Of a stretch of DNA of 29,510 nucleotides, positions 9,019 through 29,229 are shown piece by piece. This stretch comes from a virus. A program made the translations under genes and the position numbers. The stretch is taken from the IMG/VR virus record IMGVR_UViG_3300035212_003046, positions 1 to 29,510 of that record; one strand, 5' to 3'. The notes below the pieces were generated by a model that saw only the letters and a program-made list of their open reading frames with translations, had not been told where the DNA came from and did not search any database. Each line of letters begins with the position of its first letter. Position 1 is the stretch's first letter.

Positions 9019-9204
9019 ATGATAGATTGTACAAAAGTAAGAAAAATGGTTATTAACCAAATTTTACCTAACGGTGAAGTTTTGCAATCAATAATTTATT
9101 TTGATGTTGATTCGGGAGACCAATTAACAGAAAATCAAGTTTCAAAATGTATAAACATACAAGCCTTGACTTTTTCATGTGCAGTTGTATGCAACCCTGC
9201 TTAA
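9019..9204 (+). CDS. Small hypothetical protein, 61 aa, first copy of a tandem duplication
   Basis: Begins MIDCTKVRKMVINQILPNGE and ends SCAVVCNPA, with cysteines at residue 4, in the VSKC segment, and near the C-terminus. It is closely similar over residues 1-55 to the protein encoded immediately downstream (9207). The predicted fold is a small beta sheet; function is unknown. It follows the 358-aa gene by 14 bases and lies on the same transcript. Conservation of the encoded sequence across the two copies, with many synonymous differences, shows that both are real genes. Confidence 0.8.
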   Translation: MIDCTKVRKMVINQILPNGEVLQSIIYFDVDSGDQLTENQVSKCINIQALTFSCAVVCNPA

Positions 9205-9367
9205 TTATGATAGATTGCACTAAGGTAAGAAAAATGGTTATTAACCAAATTCTTCCAAATGGAGATGTTTTACAATCAACAATATATTTTGATATAGATT
9301 TAGGTACTCAATTAACTGAAAGTCAAGTATCAAAATGTAAAAATATTGAACCTATAACTTTTATTTG
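9019..9367 (+). repeat. Diverged tandem gene duplication
   Basis: The coding sequences starting at 9019 and 9207 are related over about 160 bases each. The encoded segments share MIDCTKVRKMVINQILPNG, then QLTE-QVSKC and a Thr-Phe-x-Cys strand. Third-position changes are common, so the duplication is not recent. Confidence 0.8.
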
Positions 9368-9467
9368 TGCTGATATTTGTACAAGTGAAGTTAATCTCAA
9401 TTGTTGGTCAACTCCTTTAGAAGGCTGTTGGGAACTTCCTTCGGGAGGTTTTTGGGAATTACCTTAA
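9207..9467 (+). CDS. Small hypothetical protein, 86 aa, second copy, with WELP repeat tail
   Basis: I place the start at ATG 9207, two bases after the stop of the first copy, because from there the protein aligns with that copy from its first residue (MIDCTKVRKMVINQILPNGD). The frame is open further upstream to a Met codon at 9147, but that part lies inside copy one and has no matching sequence. Residues 1-55 parallel copy one; the extra tail has cysteines (ICADICTSEVNLNCWS) and a short repeat GCWELPSGGFWELP. The DNA of that repeat forms a UUCG hairpin with a T-run, so the end of the gene doubles as a terminator. Function unknown; possibly a small tail or decoration component. Confidence 0.8.
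   Translation: MIDCTKVRKMVINQILPNGDVLQSTIYFDIDLGTQLTESQVSKCKNIEPITFICADICTSEVNLNCWSTPLEGCWELPSGGFWELP
9433..9453 (+). terminator. UUCG-loop terminator inside the end of the second duplicate gene
   Basis: AACTTCC, loop TTCG, GGAGGTT (one G-T pair), followed by T's to 9453. The C(UUCG)G closure is the classic very stable tetraloop. The structure lies before the stop codon at 9465-9467 and just before the tail tube promoter, so it would insulate the tube gene from the sheath transcript. Confidence 0.55.
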
Positions 9468-9528: not shown

Positions 9529-10023
9529 ATGGCTAATTTACTTCTTCAAGCACCATTAAAATACGAACCGAAAACACAGAATAGATGGGTGTTATTGTTT
9601 CCTGATGATGTCGGAATCCAAACATGGGCGGTTAAAAGTGTTGATACTCCTAAAATTACAATGGAAAAGAAAACTATTCAATTTTTGAATACCGAAACTT
9701 ATTTCACTGCAAGTTACAAATGGGAGGATATGAATGTGACCATTCGTGATTTTATTGCTCCATCTCAATCAGAAGCTCTTATGGAATGGGTTCGCCTTCA
9801 TGCTGAATCTGTTACAGGTCGTATGGGTTATAACGTTGGTATGGCAAAGGATATTATTTTACAATCTCTTGACCCAACAGGTGTTGCTACTGAAGAGTGG
9901 TTGTTGAAAAATGTTATTGTTACAGGTTCTGTTGAATTTGGTTCATTTGATTATACAGGTTCTGAGATTCGTGAATTGAAATTCACAATGTCTCCTCAGT
10001 ATTGCGTTCACTTATTCGGTTAA
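9529..10023 (+). CDS. Tail tube protein (T4 gp19 family)
   Basis: The 164-aa protein matches the gp19 length (163 aa) and pattern: an N-terminal APLKYEPKTQNRWVLLFPDD with the conserved 'NRW' strand, VKSVDTPKI, YFTASYKWEDMNVTIRDF (about 59-76), a helix ALMEWVRLHAESVTGRMGYN, then the beta hairpin LKNVIVTGSVEFGSFDY and the terminal strand EIRELKFTMSPQYCVHLF. These subunits stack as hexamers to make the inner tube through which DNA passes. The gene has its own late-type motif and is flanked by a terminator on each side, consistent with a separately tuned high-copy transcript. Confidence 0.95.
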   Translation: MANLLLQAPLKYEPKTQNRWVLLFPDDVGIQTWAVKSVDTPKITMEKKTIQFLNTETYFTASYKWEDMNVTIRDFIAPSQSEALMEWVRLHAESVTGRMGYNVGMAKDIILQSLDPTGVATEEWLLKNVIVTGSVEFGSFDYTGSEIRELKFTMSPQYCVHLFG

Positions 10024-10044
10024 GAAATACAAAAATATTATTAT

Positions 10045-10087
10045 AAAGTTGGGTCTATCAAAAATGATAGATTCAACTTTTTTTTTA
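10045..10087 (+). terminator. Strong rho-independent terminator after the tail tube gene
   Basis: A 16-bp stem (AAAGTTGGGTCTATCA with TGATAGATTCAACTTT, two G-T pairs) around an AAAA loop at 10061-10064, running into about ten T's. It ends the tail tube transcript. Confidence 0.9.
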
Positions 10088-10094
10088 TTTTTTT

Positions 10095-10107
10095 ATATTT
10101 ATTCATA
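10095..10107 (+). promoter_or_regulatory. Candidate late promoter motif of the gp26-like gene
   Basis: ATATTTATTCATA starts 34 bases before the ATG at 10129 and directly follows the T-run of the tail tube terminator. Confidence 0.55.
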
Positions 10108-10128
10108 CATTAATATAAAAATTATAAT

Positions 10129-10914
10129 ATGGAATTCGAAAAAAATGTAATGCAACAACCTAATCCTTTTCAAGGATATGAACCACAATCTGAAACATTT
10201 CATCTACCTTCAAAAGGAATGTTTTATCCTGAAGTGGAAGGTCAAAGAATAACGAGTGTAAAAGTTTATGATTTGGTTACTCAGGATGAAAATATTCTTT
10301 TATCACAACCTTTGATTGAATCAGGAGAAATGATAGATGTTCTTTTGAGAAAAAAAGTTGTGTCTCCTTATCCTGTTGATAAATTCACAACAGGAGACAG
10401 GTTATCTCTTTTGATTTATATCAGAGCTACAATGGAACAAATGTACAAAATTCGTGTAGTAGACCCTGAAACAGGAAATCCTTTTGACCATGATGTGGAT
10501 TTAATGAGTTTGAATATGAAAGAAATGGTACATCTTCCAAATCAAAATGGGCATTTTGAATTTAAACTTCCTAAAGATGGAAGAATTGTTACCTTTAGAC
10601 TGCTTACAGGTGAAGACGAAAAAATTATACGTCAAAAGGAGAAAAAAGAACAGCAATTGAAAGGTAACTCTGAATCTTTTTATAAAATTTTTAGATTAGA
10701 GCAACAAATTGTTTCAATTGAAGGTATCACTGATGTATTTGAAAAAGCAAAATATATCAGAAATATGAAAATTATGGATAGTAGAAAACTTATAAGTTTT
10801 ATGGATGAATGTATACCTACTATTGATTTTAATATTGAGGTGTCCGCTCCAAGCGGAAATCGGTTTTCTGCAAACATCCCTTTCACCGCTGAATTCTTTT
10901 ACCCCAATATATAA
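10129..10914 (+). CDS. Baseplate hub assembly protein, T4 gp26-like
   Basis: The 261-aa protein contains ETFHLPSKGMFYPEVEGQRI (about residues 23-42), the 'LPSKGxxY' opening typical of gp26-type hub-assembly proteins of contractile phages. It is followed by VYDLVTQDENILLSQPLIESG, VLLRKKVVSPYPVDKFTTGDRLSLLIYIRATM (about 72-103) and a beta-rich domain around RVVDPETGNPF. A charged helix KEKKEQQLKG and a C-terminal ISFMDECIPTIDFNIEV complete it. In T4, gp26 takes part in building the central hub of the baseplate. The small ORF that follows in the +1 frame is its usual partner type. The position between tube and tape measure supports a tail-assembly role. Confidence 0.7.
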   Translation: MEFEKNVMQQPNPFQGYEPQSETFHLPSKGMFYPEVEGQRITSVKVYDLVTQDENILLSQPLIESGEMIDVLLRKKVVSPYPVDKFTTGDRLSLLIYIRATMEQMYKIRVVDPETGNPFDHDVDLMSLNMKEMVHLPNQNGHFEFKLPKDGRIVTFRLLTGEDEKIIRQKEKKEQQLKGNSESFYKIFRLEQQIVSIEGITDVFEKAKYIRNMKIMDSRKLISFMDECIPTIDFNIEVSAPSGNRFSANIPFTAEFFYPNI

Positions 10915-17778: not shown

Positions 17779-20700
17779 ATGGCAGGTTTTGAAACAATCT
17801 CTAATGAGAACTTTTTTACAGTTGTAGTTGACCCTAATGGCTTAAATAAAGAAAATGTTAGGCATGAAGATTTATTTATTTTTGTAGACTTTAGAGCAAT
17901 GCCTAAGAGTCGTTCAATAGTAGAAACGGATGGGACTATTACTAATGATATTTTTGATTCAAAAGGAATTAGTTTTATTGCTTCAACTACGCAAAATGGA
18001 AAAGAATATCTTACAACAAATTATACTAATATTGGAGGTAAACAAACGAAAGAAAAAGAGGCATTTGGTATTACAGATATAAAAATAGAATTTGGAAAAG
18101 ATTTAGCTCCGATTGTTCAAATAAAATTTGTTGATGCAAGAGGTGCAGGATTATTTAATGGGTATGAAACTGTAGATGAAAAAGGTGTATTGTCTAATGA
18201 TTCATATTTTTCCACTTTTTTTAGTTTACCTTATCCTGTTTTCCAATTAACAGTAAAAGGTTATTATGGGAAAGCTATTACTTATTGTTTAAATTTGATG
18301 AAATGGAATATCACATTCAATGCAGATAAAGGTGATTTTGAAATTGATGCGACTTTTCAAGGATTTACTTTTGCATTTCTTGCAGATATTCTAATGAGTC
18401 ATGTAATTGCAATAACAACTTCCAAAATTGGGCAAGAAGCTCTAAAAAAAGAAGGAGTGATAAGTATCACTGAATTGGTAGGGAGATTAGGTCAATTAAC
18501 TCAGATAAGTGAAGATTTTAAAAAAAGTAGCTCTTCTTATGAAGAATTAAAATTTGTCAATAGTTTATTGTTAGATAGAATAGATAAAATTATTGATGTT
18601 GTAGGTCAACCAATGACTAAATCTAATTTTTCTACTTTTGGAAATAAACTCCCTATACCTCAATTAAAGTTAAATACTGACCAAATTTTCGTAAGAGATG
18701 TTGGAGTTATTTCAGAAGAAAAATCTGTTGAAATAAAAGCTATAATTGAAGACCTTGACAAATATATAAAGGAGTATAATGATTTTATAAAAACTAATCT
18801 AACAAAGTATAGTTATGGAAATCAATACAAGATTGATAATTTTAATATCAATATACCTTCAATTTCTTATTTAATTGACGATAGTAGTACAAATAAAATA
18901 ATTACAGAAGCTTTAAAGGATGGTTTATCTGCAGACCCAAATATTACTACAACAGGTGCTTTAAGAAGTAGATTAAATCTACCTGAAGATTCAAAAAAGA
19001 AATTTTATATTATAGATTTTCATCCATTCAGAAAAGAACTTGCTGAAATAAAAGATGAATTGACAAAAAAGAAAAATGAATTAGAAAAGAAGGTAAATGA
19101 TGATTTAAATGCCAATATTGAAAATCAAATTGGATTAAAATTAAATATTCAAAATGTTTTCAATATTCTAACAGGAAATATTGATGCCTATTTAAAAGTT
19201 ATTTATGACCATGCAAGAGCTGCAGATAATCCTGATATTCAAAAGGAACGTGTAAAGGCTCTTAGGGGTGGCAAAAATGATATCAATGATGGCGTTAATA
19301 GGGTATTCCCTTTCCCTGCAGTTTTTGATTCAAAAGAAGATAAAGAAATTTGGATTGGAGATATTGTAGGTGAAGATAATCCCTATTTTCCCGAAATAAA
19401 TTTGGTTAGAACTACTATCAATTCATTTATTACTTCAAACGGTAAAAGTGCTAATAAAAATACAACAGATAATTCTAAAAATACTGTTGCCATTTCAGGC
19501 GATAGTTGGATTCCTATGAATCCAACTGATTATTCACCTATACCTTATGAAACGATAAATAAACAAAATTTCAATGGCAATCAAATACCTGCAGCATTAG
19601 CTACAGAAATTGTTAAAAGAGCTACAAATGCTTATAATAAAACAGGTCATAAAGAAACTACATTTAATTATATTTCTCAATTTGATGCAGCTTTTTCTTT
19701 CAGTAAAACAACTGAATCTGTTATTAAAAATATTATAAATAATACTGATTCAAATACTTTTGCAGATTCTGTTATTAATAGTGCTACTACAGGTACGGAT
19801 GTTACTTTAGGGAATTCTACTGTAACAAAAAATACTAAAGTTGAAAAAACAGATAATACTACAATAACCACAACTACTACTGAAACTGTTACAGTTATTG
19901 AGACAGTTGAACCTGTATTAGTATTACCTGATGATTATATCAAATATATTCTTTCATTTGAGAAAGCTTATAATTATCCAAATTATGGATTGAATGCATC
20001 AGACCCTAATGGTTCTTATGGAACAAGTTTCCCTAATAATAAGTTTCCTGCTAATTTTAGTATGAATGATGCCATTAATCTTTATAATACTGCATTTTAT
20101 ATTCCATTTTTAACGGATGTTCCTGAAGGATTAAAACCTATTCTTTTAGATATTTGTGTAAATCAAGTTGACCCTTTAGGGATGTTGATTGCAGCTGCTA
20201 ATAGGTTGGATGATGCTATTAATATGCCATTAAGCTCTATAAGAATAAGATGGTTTGGAGGTTCAATGATTTATACAGTTCCACAAAATACTATACCTTT
20301 TCCAAGTCAATATACTACTACAACTTCTTATAGTGATTTTCAAACATATAAGCCTGCTATTTTTGCTTTATACAATGCTAATCCGAAAGCTTTAATTGAT
20401 GAGCTTTCAAAAGTGAGATTAATGTATTATAGTGAAGCAAGTGGAAAGGAAAAAACAGGCAGAAATAAGGTTACATTTTTTACCGAATGGAGTATTCGTA
20501 CTTTTGCTATGGCACAATTCGCTAAAGATATATCTATAAATAAAGCGCAAGAATATAATTATTATCATGGCATAAATTCAGAATTTTATAAAAGAGGTAC
20601 TAATTTTTCTTTTGAATTAAAAAGTGCGAAAGATTCAGAAGAAAGCCTTCTTTGGTTTAATAAAGTTGGCAATAATGCAACTCCATATCTATCAAATGTA

Positions 20701-26198: not shown

Positions 26199-27311
26199 AT
26201 GGCTTTAGGAAATCCAAATGCTACAAAAGGTAGCAAGAAAAATGAATCCCCTTTTAAAGGGTTTGAAAATTACAATGTTCAGGTTTACACCAAAAACGGA
26301 GAAAATTTTTTCAAGGTGGAACGTAGTTTTATCATGAATGCTCCAACAGAAGATTACTTCGAAAATGAAGAAGATTTTCTCCGTGCAGAAGCTGAACATA
26401 AAAAGTTGATGAATAAGTACAACAAACATCTATCTAAATGGCTTGAGAGTCCTATGGATAGAGAAAATGCTTCTTATTTAAAACAGCACGAAAGAAACAT
26501 GAGAATTTTATCAGAAGGTGAAGGTAAAGTTGCTTATGGTACATTTCCTGCAGATTCTCCCACAATTGCAAGTTTAGATGGCGTTATTTACAATATGTCA
26601 CAAAAACTTGATGTTATCGTTTCAACAAATCAAAAGACTGAAAAACTTTATTTTGATATGGTTGATTTCAATAACAAACAAATCTACCGAATTAATTCAT
26701 CTTTTTCAACTGCAACTCGTAATTGGCTTGATTCGATTATGAGGCTTGATTCTTTGAAAACTCCAATTCAATTGAAGTTTGAAACAGAAATGAAACCTGA
26801 ATCAAATTTCAAAGAACCAAAAATGAAAGATGGGAAGCCTGTTATTTCAGCTGTAATGATGAGCGAATTCAGAGATGGGTATTATCGTAAAAAAGTAAAA
26901 CCTTTGTATTACAATTACGATAAAGAACGTAATCACCTTTGTGAAGAAAGTGATGCAAAAGATTACAATGATGCGCTTCAATTTGCAATCAAAAAAGGTT
27001 TCAATGGAGATATTATTGAATTCTTTGTAAAAAAAGCTAATGATGTAATAATTCCAAGACTTCAAAGGGAGATGAAATCTTTCTTTGGTGAAATGGGATT
27101 TGAAGTCGAGTACCTTAAAAATGATAAAATTGGATTATTTATTCCAAATTTCAAAAAAGAAGGTTCTGATGATGATTCCGATGACAACTTCGAAGAATAC
27201 ACTCCTAAACAAGAGGTATTGGAAACCCCTACAAAAGATGCTGCAGTAGAAAAGAATACTAAAAAGTCTAAAAAAGCTTCAACTGCAGACGATGAAGACT
27301 TACCGTTTTAA
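26199..27311 (+). CDS. Single-stranded DNA-binding protein (gp32 counterpart) with SSB-type C-terminal tip
   Basis: The 370-aa protein begins MALGNPNATKGSKKNESPFK and ends TADDEDLPF. An acidic, disordered tail closing in DDxxLPF or DDDIPF is the hallmark of bacterial SSB proteins, where it binds partner enzymes; T4 gp32 has an acidic but different tail. The middle (about 110-200: VAYGTFPADSPTIASLDGVI, KLYFDMVDFNNKQIYRINSS) is beta-rich and could be an OB fold. The last 50 residues are acidic then Lys/Ala-rich. The gene sits at the head of a block with the exonuclease, as gene 32 does with rnh in T4. It has a host-type promoter and a terminator behind it. OB fold identity is inferred. Confidence 0.75.
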   Translation: MALGNPNATKGSKKNESPFKGFENYNVQVYTKNGENFFKVERSFIMNAPTEDYFENEEDFLRAEAEHKKLMNKYNKHLSKWLESPMDRENASYLKQHERNMRILSEGEGKVAYGTFPADSPTIASLDGVIYNMSQKLDVIVSTNQKTEKLYFDMVDFNNKQIYRINSSFSTATRNWLDSIMRLDSLKTPIQLKFETEMKPESNFKEPKMKDGKPVISAVMMSEFRDGYYRKKVKPLYYNYDKERNHLCEESDAKDYNDALQFAIKKGFNGDIIEFFVKKANDVIIPRLQREMKSFFGEMGFEVEYLKNDKIGLFIPNFKKEGSDDDSDDNFEEYTPKQEVLETPTKDAAVEKNTKKSKKASTADDEDLPF

Positions 27312-27334: not shown

Positions 27335-27364
27335 GCTCACTTCCTCATTGGAAGTGGGCTTTTT
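27335..27364 (+). terminator. Rho-independent terminator after the SSB-like gene
   Basis: GCTCACTTCC (27335-27344), loop TCATT, GGAAGTGGGC (27350-27359), one T-G pair, then TTTTT. It separates the SSB-like transcript from the downstream block, probably with partial read-through because the next ATG (27377) has no clear promoter of its own. Confidence 0.85.
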
Positions 27365-27376
27365 AAATTCCTTATT

Positions 27377-27883
27377 ATGTCTTTATACGAAATAAATAAT
27401 CAACTCCTAAGAGGAAAAAGTCTTGCTGATGGAGATTTTAGTAACAAAGTACTCGAAACTTTAATCAATATCTTTGAAGAAGCTGCAAACTATAATGATA
27501 AAGTTATGCATAATTCTGACTCAGATTTAGATTATATTTCTGCAGATGAAATGGGTATTGCTGCTTATATCACAACCATAGGAATGGCAAAGTCAATTGC
27601 AAAATCTGTTCTTGAGAACAAACTTTCAGTTGCAGATGAAAAATGGAGAAAAACTGATTTGAGCGATTATAAACAATCTTCAAAATCTTCAACCATTCAT
27701 ATGAACAACTTGAGAGGTTTGACTGAAATCATGCCCTTCAATCAAATCAATGAGCTTCTAACGACACTTTATTATGATTTGAACACCAAGTTCAAAGCAT
27801 TGCAATCAATAGCCTCAAATCGAAAATTTGAGATTGAAAAAGGTTTAGTGGAATATACTATAAGAAAAAGAATTACTAAATGA
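27377..27883 (+). CDS. Hypothetical protein, 168 aa, in the gp59 position
   Basis: Not recognised by sequence. It begins MSLYEINNQLLRGKSLADGD and is almost wholly helical, with a Ser/Lys-rich patch (SDYKQSSKSSTIHMN, about 95-109) and a basic C-terminus (YTIRKRITK). It lies between the SSB-like gene and the exonuclease, where the mirror order of T4 (32-59-33-rnh) would place the helicase loader gp59 (217 aa). That is a positional hint only. The parS-like palindrome begins six bases after its stop. Confidence 0.8.
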   Translation: MSLYEINNQLLRGKSLADGDFSNKVLETLINIFEEAANYNDKVMHNSDSDLDYISADEMGIAAYITTIGMAKSIAKSVLENKLSVADEKWRKTDLSDYKQSSKSSTIHMNNLRGLTEIMPFNQINELLTTLYYDLNTKFKALQSIASNRKFEIEKGLVEYTIRKRITK

Positions 27884-27888
27884 TATTA

Positions 27889-27904
27889 TGTTCCACGTGG
27901 AACA
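27889..27904. promoter_or_regulatory. Perfect parS-like palindrome (candidate ParB binding site)
   Basis: TGTTCCACGTGGAACA is a perfect 16-bp inverted repeat. It agrees with the bacterial chromosomal parS consensus TGTTnCACGTGnAACA, where ParB (Spo0J) loads onto DNA. Flanking bases do not extend the symmetry. It lies in the 51-base gap between two genes and is the only copy I see in the window. No parA or parB gene is visible here. It could instead be the operator of an unknown dimeric regulator. Confidence 0.6.
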
Positions 27905-27934
27905 ATTATTAATTAACTCGCTAAAAATAGTAAA

Positions 27935-28174
27935 ATGGTAGCTGAAATAATGGAAAAATATCCTGATGAAGAATTTCTTTTAGCTGATGGATTCAATGAG
28001 GCTGTATTAGGAGTAGATGAAAAGTCTATGAGGTTAATTTATTCTATTTCTAAATGTATAAACATTCTAATGGAAGATATGTCAGAAGAAGATGCTTTTG
28101 AATATTTCTATTATAATGTAAGTGGCGCATATATGGGGGAAAAAACTCCTATTTGGTGTGATGATATCCTATAA
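27935..28174 (+). CDS. Small acidic conserved-looking phage protein, 79 aa
   Basis: Encodes MVAEIMEKYPDEEFLLADGF, then SMRLIYSISKCINILMEDMS, EEDAFEYFYYNVSGAYMGEK and an ending TPIWCDDIL. The 'EDAxEYFxxNVxGAYxGExTPIWCxD' pattern is one I remember from small proteins in many phages, of no settled function. In the T4 mirror order this is the place of gp33, the late-transcription coactivator (112 aa), also small and acidic; I regard that as a weak positional hint. It starts 30 bases after the parS-like site and ends five bases before the exonuclease ATG. Confidence 0.8.
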   Translation: MVAEIMEKYPDEEFLLADGFNEAVLGVDEKSMRLIYSISKCINILMEDMSEEDAFEYFYYNVSGAYMGEKTPIWCDDIL

Positions 28175-28179
28175 CCCCT

Positions 28180-29229
28180 ATGAATACATTATTAGTAGAT
28201 GGAAATTCTTTGTTAAAGAATTCATTTGAAGCAACACTTTCTACAGAGGAGTACAAGAAAAATTTCAATGGAATTTACTTGTTCCTTTTGAAATTGAGAA
28301 TTATCCTCGATTCAGATTCTTATACTCATTTGAGAGTAGTTTTTGATGGAAAGGAAAGTGGTTCTTTGAGAAGAGTAGTTTATCCTGATTATAAGCTAAA
28401 AAGGCATACTAAGGAAAAAACTCCTTTCGAAGTAGAAAAGTCTTTAAAATTTAATCAGCAAAAAATATCGTTAAAAGATTACCTATCTTATTTCTGCAGT
28501 GTATATGAAGATAAATCTGTAGAAGCTGATGATATTATTGCTGCTTATATAAGACAAAAGAGTTCAAATGAAAAAGTTACAATCGTTACAGGTGATTTTG
28601 ATTTGCTAAGTCAAATCTCTAATACAGTAAATGTTTATTATCTAAATAAGTCTTTTAAATTCAAAACAAGAGTAGTTGAAAGATATGAAAAAGAAGTAGA
28701 AAGAAAAAATTTAGTAATAGACCATAAAAATTTTAAAAAAATATTTGGATTTCCTTACGAAAATATTATATTAATAAAAACAATCTGTGGTGATAATTCA
28801 GATGAGATAAAAAACATCAAAGGTGTAAAAGAAACAAGTTTATTTAATTGCTTCCCTGATATTCAAAAGAAGCCTCTTAAAATAGAAGAAATTTTGGAAC
28901 AATGTAAGATTATAACAGAATCTGATACGACTGTTCTAAAGAAAATAAAGCAAAATATTTTAGAAGGAGTTACTGATGGGTTACAAGGGAAAGACATATT
29001 GAAAATAAATAGTAGAATTGTAGACCTTTCAAATGAAGAATTTATTACCAAAGAATGTATTGATAATTTAAATGAAATTGGTTTTTTCTCTAAAGAAAAG
29101 TTTGTTCCTAAAGATTCAACTTTGATGGTGGAAAAAATGAAAGAAAGTGGATTATTAGATTTTATTAGTAATAAATCAAAGAATGTCAAATATTTTTTTA
29201 AACCCTTTTTAAAAACGTTAAATAAATGA
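28180..29229 (+). CDS. rnh: 5'-3' exonuclease / flap nuclease, T4 RNase H-like
   Basis: The 349-aa protein is a PIN-fold FEN-family nuclease. The metal-binding acidic residues are in place: LLVDGN (Asp7), VVFDGK (Asp56), EADDIIAAY (Glu115, Asp117, Asp118), TGDFDLLSQ (Asp139, Asp141) and GDNSDEIKNIKGV (Asp205, Asp208), the last running into the helix-hairpin-helix that grips DNA. YPDYKLKR (about 68-75) is the basic segment near the helical arch. In T4 this enzyme removes RNA primers and flaps during lagging-strand synthesis, stimulated by gp32. T4 RNase H has 305 aa, so this one is slightly longer. It overlaps the next gene by four bases (ATGA). Confidence 0.9.
   Translation: MNTLLVDGNSLLKNSFEATLSTEEYKKNFNGIYLFLLKLRIILDSDSYTHLRVVFDGKESGSLRRVVYPDYKLKRHTKEKTPFEVEKSLKFNQQKISLKDYLSYFCSVYEDKSVEADDIIAAYIRQKSSNEKVTIVTGDFDLLSQISNTVNVYYLNKSFKFKTRVVERYEKEVERKNLVIDHKNFKKIFGFPYENIILIKTICGDNSDEIKNIKGVKETSLFNCFPDIQKKPLKIEEILEQCKIITESDTTVLKKIKQNILEGVTDGLQGKDILKINSRIVDLSNEEFITKECIDNLNEIGFFSKEKFVPKDSTLMVEKMKESGLLDFISNKSKNVKYFFKPFLKTLNK

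Follow-up and report, generated by a model that had tools for sequence, protein, structure and literature searches.

The 16-bp palindrome TGTTCCACGTGGAACA at positions 27889–27904 of the window, by which we mean the whole 29,510-bp virus record analysed here and which is probably a piece of a larger genome, is, judging from its sequence, a genuine chromosomal-type parS under selection in a phage family. We assign a probability of roughly 0.75 to the reading that this palindrome loads host ParB onto phage DNA and so serves as a borrowed centromere, a figure that covers the loading of host ParB and not any single benefit that might follow from it. The site persists among relatives of the phage, even in one where it has changed place, and no ParB gene was found in them, so the phage probably borrows the chromosome-partition protein of its host. 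The first-pass annotation had proposed a bacterial parS, and this reading is supported, on sequence grounds, by conservation of the site, the lack of a phage ParB and the presence of the same site in host chromosomes. The features of the window referred to below are as follows.

10024..10128, no strand, intergenic gap without parS, homologous to the gap in which relative G007 has its single parS
26199..27311, plus strand, 370-aa protein, putatively in the place of a single-strand DNA-binding protein gene, to judge by its position and acidic tail
27335..27359, plus strand, strong terminator-like hairpin with T tail, 3' of the 370-aa gene and upstream of the 168-aa gene
27377..27883, plus strand, 168-aa protein, left neighbour of the site, with homologues 51–97% identical in relatives L002, L003, L004 and G007
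27884..27934, no strand, 51-bp intergenic gap holding parS, between the 168-aa and 79-aa ORFs
27889..27904, no strand, parS-type palindrome TGTTCCACGTGGAACA, an exact consensus match kept in relatives and the proposed loading site of host ParB
27935..28174, plus strand, 79-aa protein of unknown function, right neighbour of the site (PHROG match, phrog_13182)
28180..29229, plus strand, 5'-3' exonuclease (phrog_107 / PF02739)

The only exact match to the parS consensus TGTTNCACGTGNAACA in the 29,510-bp record was that at 27889–27904. Five further matches in the window had three mismatches each, and shuffled sequences averaged 1.1 matches at three or fewer mismatches. The number of exact parS sites expected per window was 7.4e-5 from base composition, 3.4e-5 from an order-1 Markov model and 2.8e-5 from an order-2 model. 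Perfect palindromes of at least 14 bp numbered five (two of 16 bp and one of 18 bp), among which a GC-rich core was found only in the 27889–27904 site. Two earlier claims, an exact consensus match with perfect symmetry and the improbability of such a palindrome in AT-rich DNA (approximately 3e-5 to 7e-5 sites expected), were thus both upheld.

The surroundings of the site had also been described as a phage replication block, which was borne out by relatives in which a DnaB-type helicase gene follows the exonuclease gene, with a ribonucleotide-reductase small-subunit gene beyond it (the latter by ORF reading). At the thresholds applied, the 168-aa protein gave no Pfam or PHROG match and the 370-aa protein no family match. 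The 79-aa protein was 70% identical to a small ORF of relative L004 and, by reading, similar to its counterpart in L002, and showed no relationship to the small ORF of L003. The DnaB-type helicase gene of two relatives is interrupted by an in-frame insertion whose ends resemble those of an intein (L002, 5726–8191; L006, 2129–4612), giving proteins of 821 and 827 aa, respectively, in comparison to 476–479 aa in L003, L004, L130 and L131.

The exonuclease served as the anchor in the search for related contigs, which returned seven in addition to a distant one (L133/G008). Alignment identities to the exonuclease of the window were 89% for L002/G001, 67% for L003/G002, 62% for L004/G003, 59% for L130/G006 and 55% for L131/G007, the tblastn identities being slightly below these figures. 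L004 and L005 (G004) were counted once because they show no difference over 11,083 bp, and L006/G005 was left out of the site count, since this contig is cut inside the exonuclease gene and does not cover the spot. Among the five distinct relatives covering it (L002, L003, L004, L130 and G007), four carried parS in the stretch separating the 168-aa gene from the exonuclease, with exonucleases 59–89% identical to that of the window. Absence of the palindrome from this place in close relatives had been named as grounds for rejecting the parS reading; these four keep it in place and the fifth carries it elsewhere. One site was present at the spot in L002 and L130 (a contig that begins in the second gap) and two in L003 and L004, with one copy on either side of a small ORF; in L003 additional ORFs intervene between the 168-aa homologue and the first parS.

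Sequence variation in these sites was confined to the positions that parS leaves open. In all eight distinct family sites (six CC/GG and two CC/GA) the open positions conformed to Y/R (TGTTYCACGTGRAACA) and no change occurred elsewhere, the pre-exonuclease site of L004 and L130, TGTTCCACGTGAAACA, differing at one such position. The window and L002 agreed at 16 of 16 positions of the site and at 23 of 35 in the remainder of the 51-bp gap, and the gaps of the other relatives had no visible likeness outside the site. A family search by the 168-aa protein added no new members, and parS was absent from distant relative G008 and from 80 loci (910 kb) of distant helicase relatives (approximately 30–33% identical).

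G007 is the only long family contig (184,534 bp, no terminal repeat), other family records being pieces of 4.6–33 kb. At the spot in question G007 has no parS, and its 167-aa gene overlaps that of the exonuclease; its parS lies at 94,753, approximately 17.1 kb upstream of the exonuclease and between two tail genes, and was the single site in the contig even with one mismatch allowed, against a chance expectation of approximately 2.5e-4 to 5.5e-4 sites. To the left of this site is a homologue of window ORF 9529–10023 (75% identical, tail-tube-like by inference) and to the right a homologue of window ORF 10129–10914 (56% identical; baseplate hub, phrog_150). That the G007 site is displaced yet single argues for a genome-level function in cis rather than control of neighbouring genes. 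Tandem paralogous small proteins (MIDCTKVRK.../MDCSKIRK...) are encoded beside the tail-tube-like gene at 9019–9467 of the window and, by reading, G007 also has such paralogues (L252, 421–871).

Profile searches agreed with the earlier remark that no ParA or ParB was in view, as the family profiles stayed below cut-off in the window and its relatives. TIGR00180 (ParB) matched none of 6 records of the window and relatives and PF02195 (ParB) none of 9 above cut-off, HTH_ParB and tyrosine integrase were each absent from 18 records, and AAA_31 (ParA) was absent above cut-off from 9 records with five weak matches, of which both that were mapped (G002 and G007) fall within the DnaB helicase gene. 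A phage-coded ParB was rejected as a candidate, with no match above cut-off in these records and the lone weak PF02195 match (G007) being a GmrSD_N protein. In G007 (L258), a GmrSD_N-domain protein of 185 aa (431–988) has as its neighbour a protein that bears the type IX secretion sorting domain (985–2511). Phage-plasmids such as P1, N15 and the extrachromosomal mycobacterial prophages are phage genomes that carry a centromere with their own ParA/ParB and persist as plasmid prophages, whereas the window family has no ParB, ParA or tyrosine-integrase match above cut-off. As far as the sequence searched shows, then, the family appears to have no phage-encoded ParABS of the P1/N15 kind, as no ParB or ParA gene was present.

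The sorting domain of the G007 protein was identified by both TIGR04183 and PF18962 above cut-off, and type IX secretion sorting domains are a mark of Bacteroidota. Similarity to Flavobacterium phage immuto was seen in the exonuclease (29%) and in the C-terminal part of the sheath (35%). The hosts of these T4-like phages, that of the phage in the window among them, are probably Bacteroidota. Chromosomal parS was present in all 20 Flavobacteriaceae genomes searched (assigned by record title, one being titled only Flavobacteriales), with 46 sites at 1–4 per genome and none for the reversed control. All 46 were Y/R at the open positions and by hand count comprised 21 CC/GG, 22 mixed and 3 TC/GA sites. 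The sites were all within 2 kb of each other in 17 of 18 multi-site genomes, and many were paired approximately 1.9–2.0 kb apart (for example in G017, G018 and G024). In a draw from the Bacteroidota phylum, 45 of 61 genomes possessed parS (G009 included again), and the 75 sites listed were by hand count 54 TC/GA, 16 mixed and 5 CC/GG. The variants of the phage family (six CC/GG and two mixed) thus appear to resemble those of Flavobacteriaceae more than those of the phylum at large. Comparison with the parS of candidate Bacteroidota hosts, as suggested in the first-pass annotation, therefore showed the same variants in 20 of 20 Flavobacteriaceae genomes.

ParB of Flavobacteriaceae gave at least 583 matches, and parS was found near parB in none of 80 loci (up to 6 kb on each side), the sites being located by whole-genome search. 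Chromosomal parS of ParABS systems (the Spo0J/ParB sites near oriC) has the identical 16-bp sequence, Y/R variants and few copies; the putative ParB site described here differs in lying on a phage contig, away from a chromosomal origin and with no parA/parB match above cut-off. The phage site is accordingly neither chromosomal nor placed beside parAB matches on the contigs searched.

The occurrence of host-type parS in other phages was determined from 50,697 deposited phage records using blastn set to report 16-bp exact matches without flanks, which superseded an initial blastn with AT flanks that gave 184 mixed records. Of these records, 58 contained the CC/GG site TGTTCCACGTGGAACA (134 places counting both strands, or 67 sites) and 286 the TC/GA site TGTTTCACGTGAAACA (824 places, or 412 sites), while two reversed palindromes and one arm-scrambled palindrome used as controls gave none. 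An off-consensus control, TGTTGCACGTGCAACA, was found in 63 records, all Synechococcus, of which the 30 listed were S-RIM2 with the match in a hypothetical gene; these records are apparently one lineage. Phage record counts are consequently to be read by lineage, because redundancy inflates them. By the first words of organism names, CC/GG matches span 18 names and TC/GA matches 27, and host-type parS was found in tailed phages and in 5-kb Microviridae alike. The palindrome had been described for this one T4-like phage; its presence there stands, but it is not peculiar to it, since many isolated phages carry host-type parS.

The variant seems to track the host group, on the sequences compared. 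Among the 58 CC/GG records, 17 were Pseudomonas phages and none were Escherichia, Salmonella or Shigella phages, although these are among the commonest names of sheath-bearing records in the same collection (634, 201 and 87, respectively); we know of no chromosomal ParABS in E. coli. Among the 286 TC/GA records, of which 60 were listed one by one, the commonest names were Listeria, Microbacterium, Arthrobacter and Gordonia; Pseudomonas fell outside the top ten, and TC/GA records also include alphaproteobacterial phages. Klebsiella phages made up 10 of the 58 CC/GG records; eight of these are of approximately 346–358 kb, with the site under an annotated gene in seven of eight. Some matches look incidental, namely those in the eight large Klebsiella records and those in a Xenohaliotis phage and a microvirus, where parS falls within a gene. 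The site was located between genes in BUCTxx99, Perkons and another microvirus.

In whole-record searches of 16 chosen phages, 14 had sites, although a CC/GG site was the reason for choosing each of these 14; the other two, Flavobacterium phages immuto and MaF61, had none. As G008 lacks the site as well, parS can be regarded as dispensable for such phages. Six Pseudomonas phages of the 14 contained nine extra sites that lay outside the selection, and all nine were Y/R (chance approximately 0.25 each). ParB_N was above cut-off in 1 of the 16 phages, Stenotrophomonas phage BUCTxx99, indicating that some parS-bearing phages do have ParB-like proteins. In this record (OR529408.1) parS lies at 19276 and two ParB_N matches at 34175–35064 (L401 and L402). 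The degenerate pattern matched at least 120 IMG/VR stretches, with 138 of the 145 sites listed being Y/R, and an 18-mer including AT likewise matched at least that many stretches while reversed and arm-scrambled 18-mers gave none. By crude gene calls, 86 of the 145 degenerate-pattern sites fell in coding sequence, 53 between genes and 6 at gene edges, in comparison to 16.2 non-coding sites expected. These IMG/VR counts lend weak support, because host contamination and virus are indistinguishable there.

Pseudomonas phages Amme-3, UAVern, Lana, KPP25, SYP, ventosus, XD2, phiR18 and Ep020 are alike in possessing host-type parS. Each has 1–5 sites, all Y/R, those of Amme-3 being at 60431 and 66260, and no ParB_N match; the CC/GG site was intergenic in seven of eight annotated phages read, that of phiR18 lying under a short ORF, and no tyrosine integrase was found in the eight searched. 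Their hosts and gene neighbourhoods differ from those of the window family. The parS2 and parS3 sites of P. aeruginosa and the parS of P. putida are the exact CC/GG 16-mer (PMC4368675, PMC7022226), and a single parS is reported to be sufficient for P. aeruginosa to segregate its chromosome (PMC4368675).

If the palindrome does load host ParB, the protein would recognise parS on injected phage DNA, close as a CTP-dependent clamp and spread along the phage genome. ParB bound in this manner could enlist host ParA and ParB-recruited SMC to position, untangle and keep phage genomes, for which a slowly dividing or carrier cell would be the setting. ParB-CTP has been described to load at parS, clamp shut, spread and activate ParA (PMC12704722). 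In lambda-parS reporter phages, ParB assembles on the parS of infecting phage DNA while replication and lysis continue; these phages differ from ours in being engineered and in having CFP-ParB supplied (PMC13190303). With regard to the benefit, positioning and keeping of phage genomes through ParA and SMC is preferred and carries the largest share of the weight, though somewhat less than half. Titration of host ParB, folding by SMC alone, and regulation or anti-defence through ParB clamps each carry about half as much.

The alternative that survives best is that replicated phage parS copies act as a sink, drawing ParB from the chromosomal sites and disturbing host segregation. This is a sub-case of host ParB loading and so overlaps our best explanation, and as an account of the site it is rather unlikely. 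Flavobacteriaceae chromosomes have just 1–4 sites, which replicated phage DNA would soon outnumber, yet family contigs carry only one or two sites where a sink should profit from many, and segregation is of little import in a cell near lysis. Both P. aeruginosa and P. putida can live without ParB (PMC7022226), so its titration should not decide the outcome of infection in such hosts.

Less probable again is an operator role, in which an unrelated dimeric regulator, of phage or host, would bind the palindrome and control the neighbouring replication genes. This would suit a site that precedes the 79-aa and exonuclease genes, and the L003 and L004 copies that bracket a small ORF. The flanks of the family sites are also shared and asymmetric, with AT following all eight sites and A preceding seven of eight, G007 included, which is a counterpoint to the ParB reading because ParB alone does not explain it. 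The shared flank may mean that the element was copied as approximately 19 bp, or may reflect a constraint other than ParB, perhaps translation in L003. Against an operator, the G007 site lies between tail genes 17 kb from the replication-block position, the palindrome is a full-length chromosomal parS that varies only at the open parS positions, an identical site occurs in the likely hosts, and the motif recurs in other neighbourhoods in phages whose hosts are unrelated. The small number of sites per genome, the relocation in G007 and the match to host sites together favour the borrowed-centromere reading over both the sink and the operator.

It is very doubtful that the site is an RNA or coding element, either a hairpin terminator or a start-codon region, with only a coincidental likeness to parS. 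A terminator scan does list the site (6-bp stem), and the A before seven of eight sites means that ATG-TTC-CAC-GTG could begin a frame. In L003 each of the two sites has an ATG in frame with it and reads into the next ORF, which in one case is the exonuclease, so the site is possibly translated there. The frames outside L003 are nevertheless short and dissimilar (by reading, 6 codons in G007 and 17 in the window), and an ATG is missing from one of the L004 sites. The hairpin at 27335–27359 provides a local example of a terminator and the parS site is unlike it. A terminator or RNA element was rejected since the L003 sites have no T tail, the fold is ordinary (z -1.17) and the CC/GA variant of L004 and L130 disrupts an inner stem pair while remaining a legal parS. 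Least credible of all is a chance origin or a recent, functionless pick-up of host DNA, for although phages do acquire host DNA, fewer than 1e-4 sites are expected in the window by the composition and Markov models and the letters persist across lineages with exonucleases 55–67% identical to that of the window and with otherwise different gaps.

Considered across phages, these results raise an idea that we regard as evenly balanced, namely that phages widely follow an overlooked strategy of capturing the host centromere, in which those infecting many different hosts with ParABS carry one to a few copies of the parS variant of the host, mostly without ParB. Clamps of host ParB, with ParA or SMC, would then position, fold or keep phage genomes during infection. 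In the openly licensed PMC text consulted, we found no description of host-type parS occurring naturally in phages. Should host ParB load at these sites, phages would exploit the chromosome-segregation machinery by means of a 16-bp site and no protein. The family would, if this is true, offer a phage-side test bed for ParB-CTP clamps and tie ParABS and SMC to infection, and the parS variants carried would be a clue to the hosts of uncultured phages. Culturable Pseudomonas phages carry the same site, so the idea is open to direct test.
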